NCBI RefSeq assembly: GCF_016887565.1
Contig: NZ_CP069396.1
Location: 310,001-374,000, forward strand
Source of the DNA: Archangium violaceum
Lineage (GTDB): Bacteria; Myxococcota; Myxococcia; Myxococcales; Myxococcaceae
Reading direction: 5' to 3'
Length of the DNA stretch: 64,000 nucleotides
This document shows positions 2,513 through 14,813 of this stretch, piece by piece. A program made the position numbers and the translations under genes. The notes beneath the pieces were generated by a model. It did not search any database. It saw nothing but the letters and a program-made list of their open reading frames with translations, and had not been told where the DNA came from. Every line of letters begins with the position of its first letter. Within the stretch, counting starts at the first letter, position 1.

Positions 2513-3715
2513 CTACCAGGTGACTGGCATCTCGTGCACGCCGAGCAGGTTGTCGTTCTGCTTGAAGGGGATGTCCTCGACGGGCACGGCCAGCCGCAGG
2601 GTGGGGACGCGCTGGAACAGCGTGCGGAACACCACCTCGAGCTCGATGAGGGCGAGCGCGCGCCCCGTGCACAGGTGGATTCCATGGCCGAGGGCGAGGT
2701 TGCGATGCGGTGTGCGGTGGATGTCCAGGCGGTCCGGGTTGGGGAAGACCCTCTCGTCGCGGTTGGCCGAGTCCGTCTGGACGAGGACGCCTTCTCCGGC
2801 GCGGATGAGCTGGCCGCCCAGGGTGATGTCCTCCGTGGCGACTCGTTGTCTGCCGCTGTGCGAGACGGTGACGTAGCGCATCAATTCCTGGATGGCCGCG
2901 GAGAGCTGGCGGGGCTCATCCGCCACCGCGCGGAACTCGCGGAGCTGGTCCGGGTCGAGCACCAGCGCCATCGTGCCCATGCAGATCATGTACGCGGTGG
3001 GGCCGTGCCCGGCGTGGAACAGCATCTGGAACATGGCGGACGCGTCCTGCTTGCTCAGCGCTCCCTTCCGCACGTGCTCGGCCACGATGCGGCCGACGAG
3101 GGTGTCACCGGGGTTGCTGACGTTCGCCTCCACCAGACGTTGGAAATAGCCGTCCATCTCCTCCAGGGCCCGTCCGGCCTCGTCCTTCGGCGAGTCGCGG
3201 GAGCCGATCGTGCAACTCAGGCCGTGCAGGTACACGTAGTCGTCATAGGGGACGCCGAGCAGCTCACAGATGACGCGAATGGCCACGGGGAGCGCGAAGG
3301 CCGCCAGCAGGTCGGTCGGCCTCGGCCCGGCCAGCATCGCGTCGAGCCTCTCGTCGACGATGCTCTGGATTCGCGGTCGCAGGGTCTCCATCCGCCGGGG
3401 CGAGAACTCCTGCACGAGCATGGCCCGCTGGACCCGGTACTCCGCATCCTCGCGGAACGGAAACGGAAGAACCCGTTCCACCCGGGCGGCCGATGTGGGC
3501 GACGTGTGCGGGAAGCCCGGCAACCTGAAGTCCAGGCTCAGCCGCGGGTCGCCGAGGGCCTCGTATGCATGCTCGTAGCGGGTGATGAGCCACGGCGTGC
3601 TGCCGTCCCACACCTGGACGCGAGTCACCGGAGCTTCTTGCCTGAGCCGCTTGTACTCGGCGGGAGGGTCCAGCGGGCAGCGCCAGTTCTTGGGCAGCGG
3701 ATAGGAATCGCTCAT
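2513..3715 (-). CDS. Cytochrome P450, NRPS-associated
   Basis: 400 residues, the normal size for a soluble bacterial P450. Visible marks: the K-helix ExxR at residues 277-280 (ELMR) and the haem loop at 342-351 with the ligand Cys349 in LGHGIHLC. In the haem loop the usual Phe is Leu. In the I helix the usual AG-x-E/D-T-T reads AGHGPT (235-240), so the acid/alcohol pair normally used for oxygen activation is replaced by Gly-Pro. Its ATG (3715-3713) overlaps the TGA of the upstream C-PCP gene in an ATGA, implying translational coupling and a role in the same pathway, for instance oxidising a carrier-bound or released peptide. The missing acid/alcohol pair hints at coupling or other non-standard chemistry rather than plain hydroxylation, which is inference. 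Confidence 0.92.
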   Translation of the reverse strand: MSDSYPLPKNWRCPLDPPAEYKRLRQEAPVTRVQVWDGSTPWLITRYEHAYEALGDPRLSLDFRLPGFPHTSPTSAARVERVLPFPFREDAEYRVQRAMLVQEFSPRRMETLRPRIQSIVDERLDAMLAGPRPTDLLAAFALPVAIRVICELLGVPYDDYVYLHGLSCTIGSRDSPKDEAGRALEEMDGYFQRLVEANVSNPGDTLVGRIVAEHVRKGALSKQDASAMFQMLFHAGHGPTAYMICMGTMALVLDPDQLREFRAVADEPRQLSAAIQELMRYVTVSHSGRQRVATEDITLGGQLIRAGEGVLVQTDSANRDERVFPNPDRLDIHRTPHRNLALGHGIHLCTGRALALIELEVVFRTLFQRVPTLRLAVPVEDIPFKQNDNLLGVHEMPVTW

Positions 3716-5226
3716 CGTGACGCTCCTGGGTGCTCGAGAAGTGCGGCGGCTCCAGCCACCGTCGGGGTTGCGTACAGGTCGCGCAGCCCGATGTGCCGGT
3801 CGAGCTCGGCACGTACCCGGACCACGAGGTCGATCAGCTGCAGGGAATGGCCACCGAGACGGAAGAAGTCGTCATGCGGGCCGACGGACTCGAGACCCAG
3901 CACGTCGGCGAAGATCCGGGTGAGGGCCCGCTCGGTCGCGGAGCGCGGGGGCAGCAAGCGAGACACCGGCACACCGGGCGCGGCGGCGCGCAGGACCTTC
4001 TCGTAGGCCGACAGCAGGCCGTCGACGAAGCCGGTGTCGAACAGGCTCTCGTCGAACTCGGCCCAGGCGACGCTCGTGCCGCTGGGGGTCTCCTCGACGC
4101 GAAGGGTGAGCTCGAACTTGGCGGTGGCGAAGTCCAGCAACTGCTCCGTCACCGAGCAGCCGTGCAGCTCCATCGCGCCGATCGTGCCCACCGGGTGGTG
4201 GGCGAAGTTGACCTGCACGAGCGGTGACCGGGTGGGGTCTCTCGGTGGGGCGAGCTCGGCGACGAGCTGCTCGAAGGGCAGATCCTTGTGCTCGTAGGAC
4301 GCGGCCAGGGACTCGGCTACCCTCACGAGCAGCTCGCGGAAGTCGGGGTCTCCGCTCAGGTCAATCGGGAGCGCGACGGTGTTGACGAAGAACCCGAGCA
4401 CGCGCTCGATCTCCAGGGGTTCGCGGTTGGCCACGGCCAGGCCGAGCAGCACCTGGGGTCTGCTCGCGAAGTGCCCGAGCACCACTCCCCAGGCGGCGGA
4501 CAGGACCGTGAACACGGTCTGACGCTCGGCGCTCGCCAACGCGCGCACCCCCGCGACGACCTCCGCGGGCAGAGCGCGATGCATGCGCCGCCCCCGCCCC
4601 AGCGCGCGGCGGGGCGGGACGAGGTCCAGCATCAGCGGGAGTCCGGACAGCCGCTGACACCACCAGCGTGACAACTCCGCGCGCCGCGAGTCGGTGAGCT
4701 GCTCCCTCTGCCACTCCGCCCAGTCCGTGTACCGCACGGGCAGCTCGGGCAACCCGGCGGGCTCACCGGTGACCGCCGCCCGGTAGGTGAGGGCCAGCTC
4801 CTCGAAGAGGATCTGCAGCGAGCATCCATCGGCCACCAGGAGATGCGCCGAGAACACGAGGAAGTGCAGCTCCGGACCCGATCGGAGCACGGTGATCCGC
4901 AGCAGCGGCCCGTGCTCGATGTCGAATGGCTGGGAGACGACGGCCTCCGCGTGCCGCGGCGCCTCGGCTTCGTCCGGCACGTCGAGCACCTGCACGTGTC
5001 CGCGTCCGTCTGGCAGCACGTGTTGGTGCGTGCCGAGTGGAAAGACGGTCCGCAGCGACTCGTGCCGGGCCACCAGTACGTCCACGGCCGCACGCACGGC
5101 GGTGGTGTCCAGCGGGCCCGTCACCCGGAAGCAGCGGGCCGTGCTCTGGGCGAATCCCGAGGGCTCGAGCCAGTGGAGGAAACACAGCCGCTGCTGGGCG
5201 AAGGACATCGGGAACGCGTTCGTCAT
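3712..5226 (-). CDS. NRPS C-PCP protein with altered catalytic motif
   Basis: 504 residues from the ATG at 5226, which overlaps the TGA of the upstream NRPS gene (ATGA). An open frame continues upstream to 5568, but that part is a shadow of the NRPS reading frame. Residues about 5-420 are a condensation domain starting at SFAQQRLCFLHWLEP. Residues about 430-500 are a peptidyl carrier domain with the phosphopantetheine serine in LGGHSL. The condensation motif HHxxxDG reads HLLVADG (4825-4845), so the second, catalytic histidine is leucine. There is no adenylation, thioesterase or reductase domain. The protein probably acts as the last station of the line, as a non-condensing docking or P450-recruiting domain plus carrier, or as a release domain; these options are inference. 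Confidence 0.9.
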   Translation of the reverse strand: MTNAFPMSFAQQRLCFLHWLEPSGFAQSTARCFRVTGPLDTTAVRAAVDVLVARHESLRTVFPLGTHQHVLPDGRGHVQVLDVPDEAEAPRHAEAVVSQPFDIEHGPLLRITVLRSGPELHFLVFSAHLLVADGCSLQILFEELALTYRAAVTGEPAGLPELPVRYTDWAEWQREQLTDSRRAELSRWWCQRLSGLPLMLDLVPPRRALGRGRRMHRALPAEVVAGVRALASAERQTVFTVLSAAWGVVLGHFASRPQVLLGLAVANREPLEIERVLGFFVNTVALPIDLSGDPDFRELLVRVAESLAASYEHKDLPFEQLVAELAPPRDPTRSPLVQVNFAHHPVGTIGAMELHGCSVTEQLLDFATAKFELTLRVEETPSGTSVAWAEFDESLFDTGFVDGLLSAYEKVLRAAAPGVPVSRLLPPRSATERALTRIFADVLGLESVGPHDDFFRLGGHSLQLIDLVVRVRAELDRHIGLRDLYATPTVAGAAALLEHPGASR

Positions 5227-8200
5227 GCGCGCGGCCGTCTCTCGATGGTGGGCCGTGCGGGCGGCAGGGTGGTGAGCGCGTTGGCCAGCTTCGCGACGGT
5301 CGGGCCCGCGAGGATGGTGGCGAGACCGACCTCCCGGCCGGTCGCCCTGCTCACCCGTGAGGCGAGCCTCAGGGCCAGCAAGGAATGCATGCCCAGCTCG
5401 AACAGGTTGTCGTGGACACCGACCCGGTCCACCTTCAGCAGCTCGGCGGCGAGCGCGGCGATCTGGCTCTCGGTCTCGTTCCTCGGTGCCGTGAACGGCG
5501 CGTCCGCGTTCCCTCGCGGTCCTGGCAGGCGGGCCCGGTCGAGCTTGCCATGGGTGGTCAACGGCCACGCGTCGAGGACTACGACGACCCCGGGCACGAG
5601 GTGTCCGGGCAACCTGCGCGCCACGTCCTCGCGCACGGCCTGACCGGACACCGCCGACCCCGGGGCGGCCAGGACGTAGCCGATGAGCCGCGGCTCGCTC
5701 CCCGTCCGATCGACGAGCGCGACGGCATCGGTCACCCCGGGATGGGCGGCCAGGGCGGTCCGCACTTCGCCCAGCTCCACCCGGAAGCCGCGGATCTTCA
5801 CCTGTTCATCGCGGCGGCCCAGGAACTCGATCACACCGCCGGGGTGCCACCGGCCCAGGTCCCCGGTGCGGTACAGCCGTTCGTCCGGTGACGATCCGAA
5901 CGGGTTCGCCACGAACCGCTCGGACGTGAGCTCCGGCATGCCGAGGTATCCCCGCCCGACGACAGCTCCGCCGATGCAGATCTCCCCGACCACGCCCGGC
6001 GGCACCACCTGAAGGTGCTCGTCGAGCACGACGAGCTGGGAGTTGGACAGTGCCCGGCCGATCGGCACACTGGCACCCTCGACGTCGTGCCAGTCTTCGA
6101 GCCGCTGACCGCTGACCACGATGGTTGCCTCCGTGGGGCCGTAGGCGTTCGTCACCCGCGTGACCCCCCTGCGTCGCAGCGCGCGGAACGCGTCCGGAGA
6201 GACGACATCGCCCCCGACCAGGATCCGCTCCAGGTGGTCGAACGCCTCCGGGATCTCCGCCACCAGGGGGTGGAACACGGCGGGCGTGAGCATGCAGTGG
6301 GTGACCGCACTGCGGGTGAGGCACCGCGCCAGGCCGTGCAGGTCCCAGCCGGGCGGCAGGAAGTGGATCGCCGCGCCCTTCAGCAGCGGCCCCCAGAGCT
6401 CCAGCACCGACACGTCGAAGGTGGGCGACACCATGGCCAGCATCGTCTTGCCCGGACCCAGGTCGACAATGTCCGTTCCGTACAGACGGGCCACGACCGA
6501 GCGGTGCTCGATCTGGACGCCCTTGGGCCTGCCGGTCGACCCGGACGTGTAGATGACGTACGCGAGGTCGGTGGGCGCGCCCGAGGGCAGCGGGAGCTCC
6601 GGCGCGTCGGGGACGTCGTCCACCAACACGACCGGGATGCCCGTGACCCGATGGGCCAGCTCCGCCGTCGTGACCACGGCGCGTGCCCCGGAGTCCTGGA
6701 CGAGCCTCTCCAGGTGGGAAGGAGGATGGTGGGGATCCATCGGGAGGTAGGCCGCCCCCGACTTCAGGATGCCCAGTTGTGCCACGACGAGCTCGGCCGA
6801 ATGCGGGGCGCACACCGCCACCACGTCGCCGCGATCGATCCCCATCCCGCGCAGATGCCGCGCCAGCCGTCCCGCCAGGTGCGTGAGCTCGCGGTAGGAC
6901 ATCGGCGAGGGACCGGACGTCACGGCGGGTGCATCCGGAGTGCGCTCGGCCCAGTGATCGACGAAGCCGGGCAACCATCCCGACGGTGCGTCAACCCTGG
7001 GACCCGAGGAGACGAGCGCCCGCCGTTCCGCGTCATCCAGCAGGGCCAGTCTCGACACCGGGGTGTCCGGGGCGGAGGTGATGGCATGCAGCAGCCGCTG
7101 GTAGGCGGACAGCATTCCCGTGATGAAGAACTCCTCGAAGAGGTCGGAGTCGAACTCCCAGGCGAGCAGGATGCCTCGCAGGGACGAGCGCGGGCTGGGA
7201 CGCAAGGGCTCGTCGGACCGGGGGATGTGCACGATGTCCCCAGCCAGTCTGCTGATGTGCCCCGGCTCGGCGTAGCGGGGGACCGCGACGACGGACAGCT
7301 CGAACTTGGCCGAGCCGTTGCTGAGTCCTTCGACGATGGAGACCTCGAGCGGGGACGCGCCGAGCGCGCCGGGGGTCGAGTCGTGGAAGCTGAACATGGC
7401 CTGGATCAACGGGTTGAACCCGCCATGGTGCCGCGCGGGCGACTCCGCGAAGATCATCTCGTACGGCAACTCCTGGTGGTCGTAGGCCGCCAGGGAGGTC
7501 CGCCGCACCCGCGCCAGGAGCTCCTCGAACGAGGGGTCTCCGTGCAACCGGCCGCGCATCACGACGTTGTTGACGAACATCCCCAGCAGGTTCTCGGTGG
7601 CCTGCCAGCGCCGGTTGGCGACCGCGGAGCCAACGAGGATGTCCCGTGAGCCGGTATACCTGTGCAGCAGGACGAAGAACGCCGCGAGGAGCGTGTTGAA
7701 CAGCGACGTGTTGTTCCGGTCGGCCAATGCCTGCAAGCGGCGCGCGAGCTCACCGTCGATCTCCATCCGGGGCGCCATTCCGCGGAACTTCCTCGACCCG
7801 GGCTCGATGCGGCGGGGGAGCTGGAGCACGGTCTCGGCGCCTTCCAGCTCCTGGCGCCAGAAGCGGCGCTGCGCCGCCGCGGCCTCGGTGCCGCACCACT
7901 CGCGTTGCCAGCGCGCGTAGTCGGAGTACTGCACGGGCAGGTCCGGGTGCCGCACCTGGCCGTGGCGCACGAAGTCGGTGTAACCGTCGATCAGGTCGCG
8001 GACGAAGACGAGGAACGACCAGCCGTCGTGCACGATGTGGTGCTCGACATGCACGAAGACGTGCTCGTCCGCGCCGAGCCTGAGCAGCAGCCAGCGGAAC
8101 GGTCTGCCGTCGGCGAGCGAGAACGGTGTCTGGAGCATCTCGCGGACGGCCGCACCGACGAGGGCCTCCTGCCGGGCTTCGTCCTCGCCGCTGATGTCCC

Positions 8201-10379
8201 GTAGCGGAACCTCCACCTCCCAGGGTGGATCCACCTCACACCGCAGCTCCCCATCCATCTCGGGGAAGCGTGTGCGCAGCACGCCGTGGCGCCGGACGAT
8301 GTCGGTGAGGCTGGCGTGAAGCGCCGTGATGTCCAGCTCGCCCGCCAGCCTGAGCACCGCTTGCGTGTGGTAGGCCCCCGCGTCCGGGTTGAGCTTGTGC
8401 ATCAGCCACACCCGCTGCTGGGCGTACGACGGAGCGAGCTCCGCGCCGGGTTCAGCCACCCGCGGGCCCGACTCCGCGTCGTCGCGCCGGTCACCGAGCC
8501 GCGCCGCGATCTCGGCCACCGTGGGGGCCTGGAGAACGGCACTCAGCTCAAGGTGCGCCCCCAGCGCGCCGCGCACCCGGGCGACGAGCTGGGTGGCGAA
8601 CAGGGAATGGCCCCCCAGCTCGAACAGGTTGTCGTGCACCCCCACCCGTTCCAGCCCGAGCAACTCCGCCGCGATTCCCGCCAGCGCCTCTTCCTCGGGA
8701 GTGCGAGGAGGCTGGTCGTCGATGCTGTCCGGCCGTTGTGGCCGGGGCAGGCTGGCGCGGTCGACCTTGCCGCTCGTGGTCAACGGCCACGCGTCGACCG
8801 GCACGAGCACATCCGGTACCAGATAGCCGGGCAGGTGATGGCGGAGCTCGGCGCGTACCGCGTCGGCCGACAGCTCCGCTCCGGCGACCGGTATCACGTA
8901 GCCCAGGAGACGCTCACCGCGCGCGTCGATGACGGCTACCGCGTCACGCACGTTCGGCAGCGCGAGCAGTGCGGCCTCGACCTGGTCCAGCTCGATGCGC
9001 GCGCCACGGACCTTGACCTGGTTGTCGCGCCGGCCGAGGAATTCGATCGTCCCGTTGGCCAGCTGTCTGCCGACATCGCCGCTGCGATACAGTCGGCTTC
9101 CCGGCACCGGGCTGAAGGGATCGGGAATGAACCGCTCGGCGGTGAGGCCGGGCTGCCCCAGATACCCTCGCCCGACACCGGCCCCACCGATGCAGATCTC
9201 CCCCGGCATCCCGTTGGGAACCGGCCGCAGGTGGTCGTCGAGCAGGACGGCGTGGGAGTGGGAGATGGGACGGCCGATGGGCACCCGCTCGCCGTTCTGG
9301 GCTCCCACGGTGTGCAGCGTGCTGGCCACCGTCACCTCCGTCGGGCCGTAGCCGTTGACGAAGCGGTGGAATGCCGCCCATTGCCGAGCGGTCTCCGGGA
9401 GGCACACGTCACCGATGCTCAGCACCACCTCGAGGTGGGTGAACCGGCCCGGGTTCAGCGTGCGCACGACAGCCGCGGGCAGCACCGCGTGGGTGATGTG
9501 GCGGGTGAGCAGCACGTCGGCCAGCGGCTCACCGGAGATCCGCGTGGCGTCGATGGTCTCCAGACGGCCGCCATGGGCCAGCGCCAGCAGGATGTCGAAC
9601 AAGGCCCCGTCGAAGGCCGGGTGGGCGAACTGCAGCACCCGTGTGTCTGGCCCCAGCGCCCCCAGGGAGTCCCGCTGGGCGTGGATCAGATTGGCGACCC
9701 CCCGATGTTCGATCATGACCAGCTTGGGCTCACCGCTCGAGCCGGACGTGCAGATGATGTACGCCAGATCCTCCGGGGTGAGCGCCGCACCACCCGCCGC
9801 GTCCTCGCTCTCTGGCACGGTGCGGGGAGCACCGCCGAGGTCGAGGTAGGGCACGCCCGGGACGGCGCTGTCCGGCGACAGGTCCACCACCAGCGTCGCC
9901 CCCGCCTTGCGGATGACCTCCTCGCGCCAGGCCGCCGGGTGCGAGGGAGCCAGCGGGAGATAGGCCGCACCGACCCGCCAGATGGCGATCAGGGTCTCGA
10001 CGAAGGCGGGTCCGCGGTCCATCACGACGGCGACCACATCCCCGCGCCCGATCCCCCGGGCTCGCATCATCCCGGCGAGGATGCGGCTGCGCTTGCGCAG
10101 CTGCGCATAGGTCACCGTGACGGCGGCGTCCGCGATCGCGACGCGGTTGGCATGCAGCCGTGACTGCTCCTCGAGCACGTCCAACACCGAACGCCACGGT
10201 CCGGGCTCCGCCCCGCTGTCTCGTACGCGTGCGGCCATCGGCGCACCGTCCACGCCCTCCGGGGGGGCGGTCCCGGCGGGCTCATCTCCTATCGCCCAGG
10301 TGCTCTTCAGCCGGAGACTGGACAGCAGTCGTTCGTACTCTGTTCCAGTGACCAGGGTGGACGGGGGCATGGGATTCAT
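5223..10379 (-). CDS. Non-ribosomal peptide synthetase A-PCP-C-A-PCP
   Basis: 1718 residues from the ATG at 10379. This start is uncertain: no clear ribosome site is seen, and an ATG at 10370 or starts further upstream are possible. Domains in order, approximately: adenylation 60-560, carrier 575-645 (LGGHSL), condensation 670-1100 with an intact HHIVHDG, adenylation 1130-1600, carrier 1630-1700 (LGMHSL). It begins with an A domain, so the first module is a loading module, and the line would join at least two amino acids. Specificity residues read by hand: D-G-F-V-L-I-G-V-A-K for A1 and D-V-L-M-L-G-A-I-V-K for A2. The conserved Asp235 implies alpha-amino acids, and A1 looks hydrophobic. I do not recognise either code. 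No epimerase, methyltransferase or thioesterase is present. Confidence 0.93.
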   Translation of the reverse strand: MNPMPPSTLVTGTEYERLLSSLRLKSTWAIGDEPAGTAPPEGVDGAPMAARVRDSGAEPGPWRSVLDVLEEQSRLHANRVAIADAAVTVTYAQLRKRSRILAGMMRARGIGRGDVVAVVMDRGPAFVETLIAIWRVGAAYLPLAPSHPAAWREEVIRKAGATLVVDLSPDSAVPGVPYLDLGGAPRTVPESEDAAGGAALTPEDLAYIICTSGSSGEPKLVMIEHRGVANLIHAQRDSLGALGPDTRVLQFAHPAFDGALFDILLALAHGGRLETIDATRISGEPLADVLLTRHITHAVLPAAVVRTLNPGRFTHLEVVLSIGDVCLPETARQWAAFHRFVNGYGPTEVTVASTLHTVGAQNGERVPIGRPISHSHAVLLDDHLRPVPNGMPGEICIGGAGVGRGYLGQPGLTAERFIPDPFSPVPGSRLYRSGDVGRQLANGTIEFLGRRDNQVKVRGARIELDQVEAALLALPNVRDAVAVIDARGERLLGYVIPVAGAELSADAVRAELRHHLPGYLVPDVLVPVDAWPLTTSGKVDRASLPRPQRPDSIDDQPPRTPEEEALAGIAAELLGLERVGVHDNLFELGGHSLFATQLVARVRGALGAHLELSAVLQAPTVAEIAARLGDRRDDAESGPRVAEPGAELAPSYAQQRVWLMHKLNPDAGAYHTQAVLRLAGELDITALHASLTDIVRRHGVLRTRFPEMDGELRCEVDPPWEVEVPLRDISGEDEARQEALVGAAVREMLQTPFSLADGRPFRWLLLRLGADEHVFVHVEHHIVHDGWSFLVFVRDLIDGYTDFVRHGQVRHPDLPVQYSDYARWQREWCGTEAAAAQRRFWRQELEGAETVLQLPRRIEPGSRKFRGMAPRMEIDGELARRLQALADRNNTSLFNTLLAAFFVLLHRYTGSRDILVGSAVANRRWQATENLLGMFVNNVVMRGRLHGDPSFEELLARVRRTSLAAYDHQELPYEMIFAESPARHHGGFNPLIQAMFSFHDSTPGALGASPLEVSIVEGLSNGSAKFELSVVAVPRYAEPGHISRLAGDIVHIPRSDEPLRPSPRSSLRGILLAWEFDSDLFEEFFITGMLSAYQRLLHAITSAPDTPVSRLALLDDAERRALVSSGPRVDAPSGWLPGFVDHWAERTPDAPAVTSGPSPMSYRELTHLAGRLARHLRGMGIDRGDVVAVCAPHSAELVVAQLGILKSGAAYLPMDPHHPPSHLERLVQDSGARAVVTTAELAHRVTGIPVVLVDDVPDAPELPLPSGAPTDLAYVIYTSGSTGRPKGVQIEHRSVVARLYGTDIVDLGPGKTMLAMVSPTFDVSVLELWGPLLKGAAIHFLPPGWDLHGLARCLTRSAVTHCMLTPAVFHPLVAEIPEAFDHLERILVGGDVVSPDAFRALRRRGVTRVTNAYGPTEATIVVSGQRLEDWHDVEGASVPIGRALSNSQLVVLDEHLQVVPPGVVGEICIGGAVVGRGYLGMPELTSERFVANPFGSSPDERLYRTGDLGRWHPGGVIEFLGRRDEQVKIRGFRVELGEVRTALAAHPGVTDAVALVDRTGSEPRLIGYVLAAPGSAVSGQAVREDVARRLPGHLVPGVVVVLDAWPLTTHGKLDRARLPGPRGNADAPFTAPRNETESQIAALAAELLKVDRVGVHDNLFELGMHSLLALRLASRVSRATGREVGLATILAGPTVAKLANALTTLPPARPTIERRPRA

Positions 10380-10606
10380 GGATTTGCCAGGGACTGTGGC
10401 AGGACGATGCGTTGGGTTCGTCACGAGGACGAGTGAGGACTGGCTACCGTCTGGCGGGGGCGGCGAGCTACCTCGGAAGAGGCATGACGCGTCCCGCGGA
10501 TTGCGGTCTGCTCGTTGGGTTTGACCGCCCTCACGGGGATGTGGGCCCGCCACATCCCGGGTAGGGTCGGGAGAGAACTGCGTATCGCGAGAGGAACGCG
10601 GAACGG
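10380..10606. promoter_or_regulatory. Divergent promoter region, NRPS / hybrid sensor kinase
   Basis: 227 bp separate the NRPS start (leftward) from the sensor kinase start (rightward), so both promoters must lie here. I see no clean -35/-10 pair and no strong palindrome. The placement makes it plausible that the flanking two-component system controls the NRPS operon. Confidence 0.45.
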
Positions 10607-13600
10607 ATGATGGACGCGACGAGCCTTCGCTGGGAGCAGTCGTTGCGCGGTTGGGGCCCGCTGTGCCTCTGCGCGTTCCTGCTGTGTGGCGGGGTCGCTC
10701 CCGCGCAAACGAATGGCCGCGACCGCAGCATCGGCCAGTTCTATCACTCGCGCTGGACCATCAAGGACGGCGCACCGGGCCAGATCTCCGCGATCGCGCA
10801 GACCCGTGACGGTTTCCTCTGGATGGCCGCCGCGGCGACGCTCTACAGCTTCGACGGCGTCCGCTTCGAACGTTTCGAGCCGCCCAGCGGTGACCCCGTC
10901 ACCAGCATCCAGACGCTGGTGGCTTCACCCGATGGCGGGTTGTGGATCGGCTTCCAGCATGGCGGCGCGGCCTACCTGAAGGACGGGCAGCTCACCCGCT
11001 ATGGCGAGGCACAGGGGCTGTCGCCGTACCAGCTGGCGTCATTCGCGTTCGACGCGGACGGAGCCGTCTGGACCGGCAGCAGGCAGGCCGGGCTCCTCCG
11101 CCTGCGGGACGGGCGCTGGCATCGCGTGGGCGCGGACTGGAACTTCCCGGGCACGCAGGCCACGGCGCTGTTCGTCGATCGCGACGGGACGTTGTGGGTC
11201 TCGGCGGCGGATACGCTCGTGTTCCTTCCGAGGGGGAGTCATTCGTTCCGCGATACCGGGGTGCGCGTGGGGTGGGTGGGGAGGATCGCGCAGGCACCCG
11301 ATGGGGTGATCTGGATCGCCGAGCTGGATGGCAACGTGCGGCCCGTGGTGCGCGCGAATGGGGAGCCTCTCCCCGCGCCAGCGAGGATCGAGGTGCAGTC
11401 GGGTGGGATGGTGTTCGACCGCGAAGGCAGCCTGTGGCTCAGCACGCTCGGCGATGGCATGCGCCGTGTGCCCCATGCCGAACGTCTGGGTGACCGGCGC
11501 ATCGGACGGTTCGATCCGGCCGCGGAGATCTTCACCGAGAAGGATGGCCTCAGCGCGGACTATGTCTGGCCGCTGATCCAGGACCGGGAAGGGAACATCT
11601 GGGTTGGCACCAGCGGGGGGCTCGACTGCTTCCGCCACAGCTCCCTGGTGCTGGCGGAGTTTCCGCGCGGCTCGCACGACTTCGCGCTGGCCGCGGGCGA
11701 TGACGGGGCCCTCTGGGCGGGCAGCACCAACCGGCCCCTGATGCGGCTGCACGACAAGCAGGTCGAGTTCGCCGCGCTCGATGAGCCGATCCGCTGCGCG
11801 TATCGCGATCCGGACGGCATCGTGTGGTTCGGAACCTCGAATGGCATCTGGCGCATCGAGGACGGCCGTCCCGTGCTCGTCGCCACGGTTCCCGTCGAAG
11901 CGAACACCCTGCAGGTCCAGGCGATGACGAAGGACGCGGCCGGTGGGTTGTGGGTCGCCATGTCGATGGGCGGGCTGCTGCGCTGGAAGGACGGCGCGTG
12001 GACGCGCATGGACGAACAGCTCGGGATGGCCGCGCGGACGCGCATCCTTTCCGCGACGACTGACGCGTGGGGCGGTGTCTGGCTGGGGTTCAATGACGCG
12101 GTCGCCAGGGTCGACCAGGGTCTCGTGCGCCGCTACGGCGCCGCGGACGGGCTCCACCTGGGAGTGGTGACCGCGCTGCGCGCCGGGCGGCGGTTGTGGG
12201 TGGGGGGGCAGTTCGGTCTCGTTCATTTCGACGGGCAGCGCTTCCACCCCTTCGGCGTGGCCAGCGGCGAGCCCTTGCGCGGTGTCGCTGGCATCCTGGA
12301 GATGCCGGATGGTGGCCTGTGGATCCACGCGGTGCCGGGCATCTTCCACTTCAGCGCGGAGGAGGTGGCGCGCGTCGTCGCCGATCCGAGCCAGCTCGCG
12401 CGCGGCGAGCGCTTCGACTTCCTCGATGGCCTGCCGGCGCGGCCCACCCTGTTGCGTCCGCTGCCCACCGCGGTGCAGGGCACCGACGGCAGGCTGTGGT
12501 TCGCGACCAGCAATGGCGTGGTGTGGATCGACCCGACACGCATCTTCCGCAACCCGTTGCCCCCCCCGGTGCACATCCGCGCGGTGCGCGTGGATGGCCG
12601 GCTGCTCGCACCGGGCCCGTCGCTCACGGTGCCGGCGCGGACGATGAACATCGAGATCGATTACACGGCGTTGAGCTTCGCCGTTCCCGAGCGCGTGCGC
12701 TTCCGCTACCGCCTCGAAGGCGTGGACGAGGCGTGGCAGGACGTCGGCACGAGGCGCGAGGCGTACTACATGCATCTGGAGCCCGGGCGATACCGCTTCC
12801 GTGTCATCGCCGCCAACAACGACGGCGTCTGGAACGAGACGGGCGCGACGCTCGAGCTCATCCTGCCACCGGCGTTCTTCCAGACGTGGTGGTTCCGCGC
12901 CTTGTGCATCGCCTCGGCCCTGGCGGGGTTGTGGATGCTGTTCCTGCTGCGGCTGCGCCAGGTGAGGGCGCGCATGCGCGCCCTGTTGGAGGAGCGTCAC
13001 CGCGAGCGCGAGCGCATCGCTCGGGAGCTGCACGACACGCTGCTGCAGGGCATCCAGGGGTTGATCCTGCGTTTCCAATCCGTGGCGGAGCTGCTCCCGG
13101 CGGACGCGCCCGTGCGCGTCGCGATGGAGAAGGCGTTGGATCGTGCCGAAGCTGTCCTGGGCGAGGGGCGCGACCGGGTGAAGGGCCTGCGCGCCGCTTC
13201 GGAGAGCACGGGAGAGCTGTCCCAGGCCCTCGCCGGGGTGGGGGAGGATCTCGAGCTGAATCCTCCGGAGGGATTCCACGTGGTGGTGGAGGGGCAGCCC
13301 GCGTCGCTGGACCCGCTCGTGCGCGATGAGATTCTGCGCATCGGCCGCGAGGCGTTGGTGAACGCGTGGCAGCATGCCAACGCGCGGCGGATCGAGGTGG
13401 AGCTCACCTATGATTACGGCGAGCTGCGCCTGCGCGTCCGAGACGACGGATGCGGCATCGATGAGGAAGTCCTCCAGGCGGGAGGACGGCACGGACACTG
13501 GGGCCTGTCGGGCATGCGCGAGCGGGCGCGGAAGATCGGAGCGCGGCTGGACATCTGGTGCCGCAGCGAGTCGGGGACGGAAGTGGAGCTGCGCGTCCCG

Positions 13601-13678
13601 GCGGCGGTCGTGTATCGCGGAGATCCGAAGCGGACCTGGCGCAACCGGTTGCGGTGCATCGTTGGCGGAGGCCGCTGA
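10607..13678 (+). CDS. Beta-propeller (Y_Y_Y) sensor histidine kinase
   Basis: 1023 residues. A signal peptide (about 1-34) is followed by a periplasmic part of some 14 Reg_prop-type repeats (patterns such as DGFLWMA, GGLWIG, GNIWVGT-GL), which fold as a double propeller. A Y_Y_Y domain follows at about 660-745 (IEIDYTALSF, YRFRVIAANNDGVWNE), then a single membrane helix at about 765-785, a HisKA_3 dimerisation domain with phosphoacceptor H809 (RELHDTLLQ) and a C-terminal HATPase (NAWQHANA, DDGCGID, GLSGMRERA). This is the BaeS-unrelated NarX/DesK-like class that pairs with NarL-type regulators. The matching regulator gene is immediately downstream but on the other strand. In other bacteria this architecture often senses polysaccharides or their fragments; the ligand here is unknown. 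Confidence 0.92.
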   Translation: MMDATSLRWEQSLRGWGPLCLCAFLLCGGVAPAQTNGRDRSIGQFYHSRWTIKDGAPGQISAIAQTRDGFLWMAAAATLYSFDGVRFERFEPPSGDPVTSIQTLVASPDGGLWIGFQHGGAAYLKDGQLTRYGEAQGLSPYQLASFAFDADGAVWTGSRQAGLLRLRDGRWHRVGADWNFPGTQATALFVDRDGTLWVSAADTLVFLPRGSHSFRDTGVRVGWVGRIAQAPDGVIWIAELDGNVRPVVRANGEPLPAPARIEVQSGGMVFDREGSLWLSTLGDGMRRVPHAERLGDRRIGRFDPAAEIFTEKDGLSADYVWPLIQDREGNIWVGTSGGLDCFRHSSLVLAEFPRGSHDFALAAGDDGALWAGSTNRPLMRLHDKQVEFAALDEPIRCAYRDPDGIVWFGTSNGIWRIEDGRPVLVATVPVEANTLQVQAMTKDAAGGLWVAMSMGGLLRWKDGAWTRMDEQLGMAARTRILSATTDAWGGVWLGFNDAVARVDQGLVRRYGAADGLHLGVVTALRAGRRLWVGGQFGLVHFDGQRFHPFGVASGEPLRGVAGILEMPDGGLWIHAVPGIFHFSAEEVARVVADPSQLARGERFDFLDGLPARPTLLRPLPTAVQGTDGRLWFATSNGVVWIDPTRIFRNPLPPPVHIRAVRVDGRLLAPGPSLTVPARTMNIEIDYTALSFAVPERVRFRYRLEGVDEAWQDVGTRREAYYMHLEPGRYRFRVIAANNDGVWNETGATLELILPPAFFQTWWFRALCIASALAGLWMLFLLRLRQVRARMRALLEERHRERERIARELHDTLLQGIQGLILRFQSVAELLPADAPVRVAMEKALDRAEAVLGEGRDRVKGLRAASESTGELSQALAGVGEDLELNPPEGFHVVVEGQPASLDPLVRDEILRIGREALVNAWQHANARRIEVELTYDYGELRLRVRDDGCGIDEEVLQAGGRHGHWGLSGMRERARKIGARLDIWCRSESGTEVELRVPAAVVYRGDPKRTWRNRLRCIVGGGR

Positions 13679-13702
13679 GCGGCCCGGGCCCATCGGGCTC
13701 AG
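13675..13702. terminator. Bidirectional hairpin spanning both stop codons
   Basis: The six-base arms CTGAGC (13675-13680) and GCTCAG (13697-13702) contain the TGA of the sensor kinase and the stop of the regulator, read from opposite strands. A GC-rich self-complementary stretch lies between them. The compact tail-to-tail arrangement suggests a shared bidirectional terminator; no U tract is present. Confidence 0.45.
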
Positions 13703-14331
13703 ATGTCGATGATGCCCCGCTTCAGCGCGACCACCACCGCATGCGTCCTGTCCTTGGCGCCGAGCTTGGTCAGGACGTTCTTCATGTGCGTCTTGACCGT
13801 CTCCTCGGAGATGCCCATCCGGGCGGCGACCTCCTTGTTGGCGTTCCCGGCGGCGACGTGGGCCAGGACGTCGCGCTCGCGTGCCGTCAGCTCGTCGTCC
13901 GCCATGTGCTCGGCCATCTCGGAGGCGATGTCCGCGGAGATGCGGCGACGTCCCGCGTGCACGCTGCGGATCGTCTCCACCAGCTCCTTGCGCAGCATGC
14001 TCTTGAGCAGATAACCGGACGCACCGGCCTTGATGGCGCGCAGCGCCTGTGCGTCGCCCTCGTAGGTCGTCAGGACGATGATCCGGGCCGTGGGGAACTC
14101 GGTGCGGATCGCGGTGATTGCATCGATGCCGCCCATGGTGGGCATCCGCACATCCATCAGCGTGATGTCGGGCCGATGGTGGCGGAAGGCTTGCAAGGCC
14201 TGCTCGCCATTCTCCGCTTCGGCGACCAGCGCCATGTCCGATTGCCCGGAGATCATGGCACTGAGCCCTTCGCGCAGCAGGGGATGGTCGTCGACGACCA
14301 GGATGCGAATGATCGGGCCCGTGGAAGTCAT
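13699..14331 (-). CDS. NarL/LuxR-family response regulator
   Basis: 210 residues from the ATG at 14331; upstream in-frame sequence to 14610 has no regulator features. A receiver domain occupies residues 7-125, with the acidic pocket DD14-15, phosphoacceptor D60 (LMDVRMP) and the conserved lysine in LLKSMLRKE. A LuxR-type helix-turn-helix is at about 145-205 (LTARERDVLAHVAAGNANKEVAARMGISEETVKTH, quoted here only as the region). It is the obvious partner of the Y_Y_Y sensor kinase, 20 bp away and convergent. Targets are unknown; the divergent NRPS operon beyond the kinase is a candidate. Confidence 0.92.
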   Translation of the reverse strand: MTSTGPIIRILVVDDHPLLREGLSAMISGQSDMALVAEAENGEQALQAFRHHRPDITLMDVRMPTMGGIDAITAIRTEFPTARIIVLTTYEGDAQALRAIKAGASGYLLKSMLRKELVETIRSVHAGRRRISADIASEMAEHMADDELTARERDVLAHVAAGNANKEVAARMGISEETVKTHMKNVLTKLGAKDRTHAVVVALKRGIIDI

Positions 14332-14444
14332 CGGCGTATGAACAAGATACTCGTGGTCACCCTTGTCGGGATCCCTCGAAAGAGGGAGGATGGACTCGCT
14401 TATCCCAGGTTCTGTCGCGTTCCACCAGCGGGTAGCCTGCGCTG

Positions 14445-14813
14445 GTGCAACGTCTCTTCTCCATGTTTCCGGACGGTGGCCCTGGGGTCGGCCTGCTGTT
14501 GTTGCGGCTGGCGGTGACTCTGCCCCTGCTGTTTCAGCCATCCCGCGGAGCGCTGGGGCAAGCGCTGCTCGCACTCCTGGTCCTGGGTCTCTGGCTGGGG
14601 CTCCTGACACCTGTCTTCGCGGTCACGTGTTGTCTGCTCGAGCTCTACGCGCTCCTGGTGTCGGGGGGCACGAGCCTTCCCGAGGCAGGCATCCAGTTGC
14701 TGGCCGCGGCGGCGGTGGTGCTGCTCGGACCCGGCGCGTATTCGCTGGATGCCCGGTTGTTCGGAAGACGTGTCATCACCCTGCTTCCGCGTGGACGGAA
14801 CCAGGAGGAATGA
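14445..14813 (+). CDS. Small integral membrane protein, unknown function
   Basis: 122 residues if the GTG at 14445 is used; an ATG at 14463 would drop six residues. Three to four hydrophobic helices cover most of the chain (GLLLLRLAVTLPLLF, LLALLVLGLWLGLL, FAVTCCLLELYALLV, LLAAAAVVLLGPGAYSLD). The overall plan resembles the short DoxX-like family, but no diagnostic motif is visible. It is divergent from the response regulator gene with 113 bp between starts, so it could be a target of that regulator. Nothing recognisable lies in the 197 bp that follow (14814-15010). Confidence 0.65.
   Translation: MQRLFSMFPDGGPGVGLLLLRLAVTLPLLFQPSRGALGQALLALLVLGLWLGLLTPVFAVTCCLLELYALLVSGGTSLPEAGIQLLAAAAVVLLGPGAYSLDARLFGRRVITLLPRGRNQEE

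Follow-up and report, generated by a model that had tools for sequence, protein, structure and literature searches.

In the window analysed here, a 64,000-nucleotide stretch of the 13.2 Mb genome of Archangium violaceum, three neighbouring genes on the minus strand appear to encode a minimal dipeptide assembly line, the last step of which would be carried out by a separate condensation-carrier (C-T) couplet that releases a diketopiperazine. We put the probability of this reading, which draws on sequence comparison, at roughly 0.46. The couplet is a free-standing protein of 504 residues (3712..5226) in which a condensation domain, denoted C* below, has leucine at the second histidine of the HHxxxDG motif and is followed by a peptidyl carrier protein (PCP, or T) domain. 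C* probably assists release of the dipeptide, which may leave in cyclic form, and the cytochrome P450 of the same cassette would oxidise the product afterwards or at the same time.

The upstream gene encodes a nonribosomal peptide synthetase (NRPS; 5223..10379, from domain search and orthologue alignments), the C*-PCP gene lies between, and the P450 gene (400 residues; 2513..3715) is downstream, with ATGA overlaps at both junctions. The first-pass annotation of this DNA had described an operon of the layout A-PCP-C-A-PCP / C*-PCP / P450, where A is an adenylation domain, ending in a coupled P450 gene. The domain search and the overlap bear this out, and the motif HLLVADG lies exactly where it had been placed, at 4825..4845 (residues 128–134). 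C occupies residues 4–416 of the C*-PCP protein and PCP residues 434–497; the search gave no A domain there, in agreement with the earlier statement that none feeds the last carrier. That no thioesterase (TE) follows also holds for PF00975, the one thioesterase family for which the genome was scanned: there is no match in the window, the nearest match outside it is marginal (27 bits, ∼123 kb away), and strong matches occur in two short stand-alone frames, which are megabases from the window.

The altered motif is a fixed feature of the protein. The second histidine is leucine in 28/28 full-length C* orthologues (27 myxobacterial and one from Streptomyces), all of which read HLL(V/A/T)ADG, and histidine in all 100 comparison domains; of these, 92 are C, DCL-like and epimerization (E)-like domains found in the same genome and 8 are internal C domains taken from the cassette. 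His128, Asp133, Gly134 and the phosphopantetheine serine of the C*-linked PCP (GGHS, 3844..3855) are retained in every C* row. The retention of these residues, with the second histidine absent throughout, argues for a kept function. Decay or a sequencing error behind HLLVADG was rejected, since the reading frame is intact and 28 orthologues share the change; the ratio pN/pS is 0.19–0.37 for the four pairs of close C* sequences that were compared. A further substitution lies in the segment GLAVANR (4423..4443), where Leu263 is found in 28/28 C* rows; other C domains mostly have Thr or Ser at this column, and the intact C domain of the cassette has Ser. Eight long-branch rows were left out of the LCL counts in this column table, though not out of the histidine count. 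Ala264, in a column that we infer to align with RzmA P271, is likewise invariant in C*; a Pro-to-Ala replacement here was considered as a second active-site change and dropped, as the intact C domain of the cassette itself has Gly, Ala or Ser. A relocated catalyst is possible, for which the invariant Cys357, Glu378 and Asn340 are candidates.

The pattern in which C* has been lost bears on how it may work. Three genomes (G020, G032 and G068) carry two cassettes each, and in each of them one C* copy has been deleted wholly or partly: a remnant of 38 codons is left in locus L056 and one of 13 codons in L057, and the C* of L081 lacks approximately residues 71–239, the motif included. Each of the three deletions preserves the reading frame, an outcome with a chance of 1 in 27, and the NRPS and P450 frames of these clusters stay open. 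By a simple count over the 30 clusters, the probability of one loss per two-cassette genome is 0.002, or 0.005 if the losses are merely confined to such genomes. In the P450 search of 96 family genomes, the only P450 without C* in a one-cassette genome was the fragment in G006. Because each loss falls in a genome with a second, complete C*, the data suggest that one C* per cell is enough and that it acts in trans. The losses are recent, given that the cassettes of L056 and L057 still share ∼98% identity with those of intact relatives. For the most part, the low pN/pS values of NRPS and P450 therefore predate them.

These deletions could also be taken to mean that the dipeptide is released by cyclising spontaneously to a diketopiperazine and that C* is a dispensable part on its way out, as three clusters have discarded it with NRPS and P450 still open. 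We give this account little chance. The three losses occurred only where another complete C* is present, the motif and the phosphopantetheine serine are invariant, and the pN/pS values given above stand against it as well. The invariance of the motif and the distribution of the losses together make a dead relic unlikely.

Two further invariant features, which the first-pass annotation had not noted, accompany the altered motif, one in the donor carrier of the NRPS and the other in the P450. The motif of the second PCP, LGMHSLL in the window (5376..5396), contains GMHS in 29/29 readable clusters of the 30 in all, and in Streptomyces; the NRPS of L064 was left out of this reading, and contig ends truncate L068, L072 and L075. 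All 49 PCP motifs sampled elsewhere in the genome are GGxS, read with a pattern that would have admitted GMHS. The internal C domain of the NRPS is intact (HHIVHDG, 8022..8042). With code positions set by what we take to be the GrsA anchors, the first A domain reads DGFVLIGVA in the window and DAFVMTGVA in many orthologues, and the second reads DVLMLGAIV and is variable across orthologues. Coralinone, a myxobacterial pyrazinone, was considered as the product but set aside because the line that makes it has the order A-T-C-A-T-KS-AT-ACP-TE (PMC10979478).

The closest known counterpart in domain order is fungal GliP, A-T-C-A-T-C-T, in which, according to the relevant passages of PMC11610984, the terminal C domain and T3 make the diketopiperazine. 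The cassette likewise has an extra C-T after a two-module A-T-C-A-T line. However, GliP is one polypeptide, whereas the C-T of the cassette is free-standing, bacterial and devoid of the second histidine: fungal terminal C domains are described with SHxxxD or HxxxDxxS motifs in which this residue is present (PMC10212144, PMC11546977), and Leu129 occupies its place in 28/28 C* rows. A second counterpart comes from the solved structures. In a phmmer search of solved chains, 8z0q_C ranks first over T and C together (222 bits, E 1.2e-64; 181 bits for the C part alone). This entry is titled HtmB2-CT (PDB 8z0q, 8z0r) and is ∼30% identical to C*. HtmB2 is a hangtaimycin synthetase, and hangtaimycin has a terminal diketopiperazine unit (PMC10624959). 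In our alignment the motif of HtmB2-CT reads TRPWGIFDG, with histidine at neither site, so a solved terminal C-like domain from a diketopiperazine-ended line is also without the catalytic histidine. Ring closure by HtmB2-CT itself is our presumption; no paper on HtmB2-CT was found. The resemblance consists of a condensation-like CT domain with an altered HHxxxDG that is the best solved match over T and C. The two differ in that T precedes C and none follows it in the deposited chain, and in that HtmB2-CT (PWGIFDG) has lost both motif histidines whereas C* (HLLxADG) keeps His128.

The first-pass annotation had looked to the placement of C* among C-domain classes to tell its possible roles apart. 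In a quick tree of 111 domains, the 11 C* rows group together (SH-aLRT 100) on a long stem of 0.95, which lies within the LCL-like part (enclosing fork SH-aLRT 98) and is separate from almost all rows labelled DCL or E. By this quick tree C* thus descends from the LCL-like clade, but placement alone does not decide between the readings, since X domains, the C-like domains of glycopeptide synthetases, are also placed in the LCL-like part (PMC10212144). The own-genome rows of the tree cover 92 of 102 C-type matches, three of the others being outside the fetched stretches and the rest not retrieved or belonging to the cassette itself, and the trees hold no X-domain sequence. DCL and E labels rest on the adjacency of two C-type domains; one pair so labelled falls with LCL-like rows and is on that account mislabelled. 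When HtmB2-CT is added, C* and HtmB2-CT lie on one side of a branch with SH-aLRT 82, which is not significant, and both are long branches; 6 long-branch rows and 17 E rows were left out of the quick tree quoted.

The fold is similarly permissive. A first AlphaFold model of C* from 15 rows was poor (pLDDT 68), and internal C domains were added for the model used here, which has pLDDT 79.9 and pTM 0.75, with residues 265–281 below 50. It superimposes on the FscG C domain with Z 38.3 (rmsd 3.1, 408 aligned), on HtmB2-CT with Z 36.6 (rmsd 2.6, 408 residues), on the teicoplanin X domain (4tx2) with Z 34.6 (rmsd 3.6, 415 aligned) and on the X domain of 6m7l with Z 33.3 (rmsd 4.4, 406 aligned). The Z values of the model are close, and function is not decided by fold alone. 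The 50 matches listed include no fungal CT structure (TqaA), which carries no weight in either direction.

Several observations weigh against a ring-closing C*. Gliotoxin formation is reportedly abolished by a point mutation in the conserved active site of the GliP C domain, so a histidine-less cyclase must work otherwise. The C part alone scores Txo1, an ordinary C domain, above HtmB2-CT (209 versus 181 bits), the rows nearest HtmB2-CT by path length are ordinary C domains, and the highest structural Z belongs to FscG, again an ordinary C domain. The FscG H2697Q variant, altered at the second histidine, was left with ∼1% activity (PMC8097023). C* further keeps Arg13, invariant in 15/15 aligned rows including Streptomyces, which aligns here with FscG R2577, the gate that excludes unloaded phosphopantetheine. 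Finally, the inference that C* acts in trans calls for caution, as the loss events are few (n = 3).

Some of the same features could be read as the marks of an elongating module without an A domain, in which the last PCP would be charged in trans by the second or another A domain and C* would make a peptide bond, giving a tripeptide. The LCL-like placement and Arg13, by our alignment the LCL acceptor gate, fit such a module; a second-histidine mutant of RzmA retained very weak activity (PMC7804268), and a C-T module of the mannopeptimycin synthetase is served by a neighbouring A domain (PMC8949500). Set against this are the leucine in 28/28 rows, the Ser/Thr-to-Leu change at column 263 and the want of a release domain after C*-PCP, and we regard elongation as quite improbable. 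Still smaller is the chance that C* is an amide synthase that releases the dipeptide by joining it to a free amine, for example a polyamine. C-T didomains are listed as one kind of terminal unit for putrescine-ended peptides, and the terminal C domain of the glidonin line makes an amide (PMC10587159), so that release by a terminal unit without a working A domain would be common to both systems. In contrast to C*, however, the glidonin C13 domain keeps and uses its second histidine and joins an external amine (PMC10587159), and the cassette showed no gene for amine supply.

The P450 is itself unusual. Its nearest solved structures are CYP105Q4 (8swl) and 5y1i, and its I-helix reads AGHGPTA (2993..3013) where these two have AGHETTA. 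GHGP is found in 29/29 P450 orthologues and in Streptomyces, so the acid-alcohol pair has been lost in every orthologue, both the acid and the threonine being gone. The P450 reaction may itself be out of the ordinary. Three genomes (L059, L060 and L061) have a second group of P450s at 42% identity; these P450s gave no typical match to the I-helix pattern used, and the three loci had no NRPS or C-PCP match above 45–50% identity.

The P450 gene directly follows C* in 26/27 clusters with full-length C*, which raises the alternative that C* is a catalytically dead C-like domain bringing the P450 to the carrier-bound dipeptide through an interface of its own. X domains do this for Oxy P450s. In siderophore synthetases, the interface (I) domain brings a TauD-type β-hydroxylase to a carrier. 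The ATGA overlap in the window, the absence of the second histidine in all C* rows and the structural fit of solved X domains (4tx2) are consistent with such a platform, and because the P450 I-helix is abnormal in all orthologues, special presentation of the substrate is plausible. The P450 nevertheless persists without the C-PCP gene in L056 and L057, and L053 has kept C-PCP and lost the P450; G057 has a complete C* and a truncated P450.

The comparison with the X domain, which the first-pass annotation had drawn, does not hold. X domains share with C* a C fold, an altered HHxxxDG and a tie to P450 chemistry, but they are distinguished by HRxxxDD, a place between the last T and the TE, and partner P450s with PRDD in the F-helix. 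C* reads HLL(V/A/T)ADG and sits in a free-standing C-PCP with no TE after it, as judged by the lack of a PF00975 match in the window. PRDD occurs anywhere in the P450 of 0/29 myxobacterial orthologues; the looser PR[DE][DE] is present in 5/29, and the P450 of the window is without it. The T motif beside an X domain is given as LGGDSG in PMC10212144; here it is LGMHSL before C* and LGGHSL after it. In phmmer, X domains reach 89–91 bits (teicoplanin 91) versus 210–222 for the three best solved chains. We therefore reject membership of C* among X domains on motif, position, T motif and PRDD, and consider a platform with its own interface unlikely. Of the two roles that the annotation had held out for C*-PCP, P450 docking and an unusual release station, it is the second that gains support, because of the A-T-C-A-T-C-T order and the similarity to HtmB2-CT.

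Release by the C-T couplet could proceed as follows. The dipeptidyl chain on the second PCP would enter the donor side of C*, where the leucine-lined centre would not transfer it as an amide to an incoming aminoacyl carrier. C* would instead fold the chain in such a way that the thioester is attacked by the free amine of the chain itself, and a 2,5-diketopiperazine would be released, with the extra carrier of C*-PCP in the role of GliP T3. The P450 would then oxidise the released ring or the bound chain, and C*, acting in trans, could also work on another assembly line of that cell. In its most specific form, this makes the histidine-less, free-standing C-T a shared trans release factor, which closes diketopiperazines on two lines per cell, is recognised by the GMHS carrier and passes its product to a P450 without the acid-alcohol pair; we hold this version tentatively and regard it as rather doubtful.

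A full-length C-PCP orthologue is present in 27/96 family genomes, that of the window included, at 62–88% identity to the latter. If a truncated second copy in G032 is set aside, the next C-PCP matches among these genomes are at ≤43% identity. The 29 full-length P450 orthologues come from 26 genomes, to which the G006 fragment is added, and the 30 clusters include three second copies. At the class level the P450 is found in 26/147 genomes, all within the same family. A search for related loci returned 14, of which 13 are myxobacterial and one is from Streptomyces sp. NRRL S-31, where the same order is kept at 56% (NRPS), 50% (C-PCP) and 61% (P450) identity, with HLLAADG in C* and GHGPS in the P450; no TE family match was found in the six neighbouring frames scanned. 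Streptomyces was sampled through the P450 only, with 1/150 genomes positive, this being the source genome itself.

At L056, ∼8 kb (5978–13988) is 97–99% identical to L049, L057 and L050 across genera, minus the deleted C*, and outside this block the comparison with seven loci gave just one match, of 907 bases and in a single locus. With the block near-identical across genera and the flanks almost unmatched, the cassette seems to move as a unit. A divergent PGA_cap (CapA-like) gene lies upstream of the NRPS in nine compared loci (L056 6019–7239 and eight others); it was assigned by Pfam on the L056 copy and sits in the stretch common to L056 and L049. In its place the window holds a histidine kinase gene of the Reg_prop/Y_Y_Y type (10607–13678), accompanied by a LuxR-type regulator (13699–14610), a pair that is divergent from the cassette. 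Among 33 flank loci, some of them cut short, this two-component pair also occurs in L062 (G004) and in L058 (G006), where it stands beside a wrecked cassette of NRPS and P450 fragments only. Downstream of the P450, the window has a gene for a Kelch/beta-propeller protein (1245–2408), with no match at ≥50% identity among the 33 flank loci. For the NRPS itself, the mechanically called open reading frame begins at 10553, but Met59 (10379) is the likelier start, since most orthologue alignments begin at residues 45–68.

Terminal C and C-T release units are already known as a kind. In a limited search of open-licence papers we recognised no description of this cassette, and within that search C*-PCP is an apparently undescribed variant: free-standing, bacterial, His-to-Leu throughout, partnered with GMHS and GHGP, and apparently shared between lines. 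The role of the second histidine in C domains is still debated (PMC11546977), and a natural family with leucine at this position, extending from myxobacteria to Streptomyces, offers a clean test of a histidine-less C domain. If C* does close rings in trans, the three-gene cassette would contain a small, separable release part, and if it is shared between lines, it would correspond, in bacteria and in trans, to the fungal C-T3 couplet but would use another catalytic centre.

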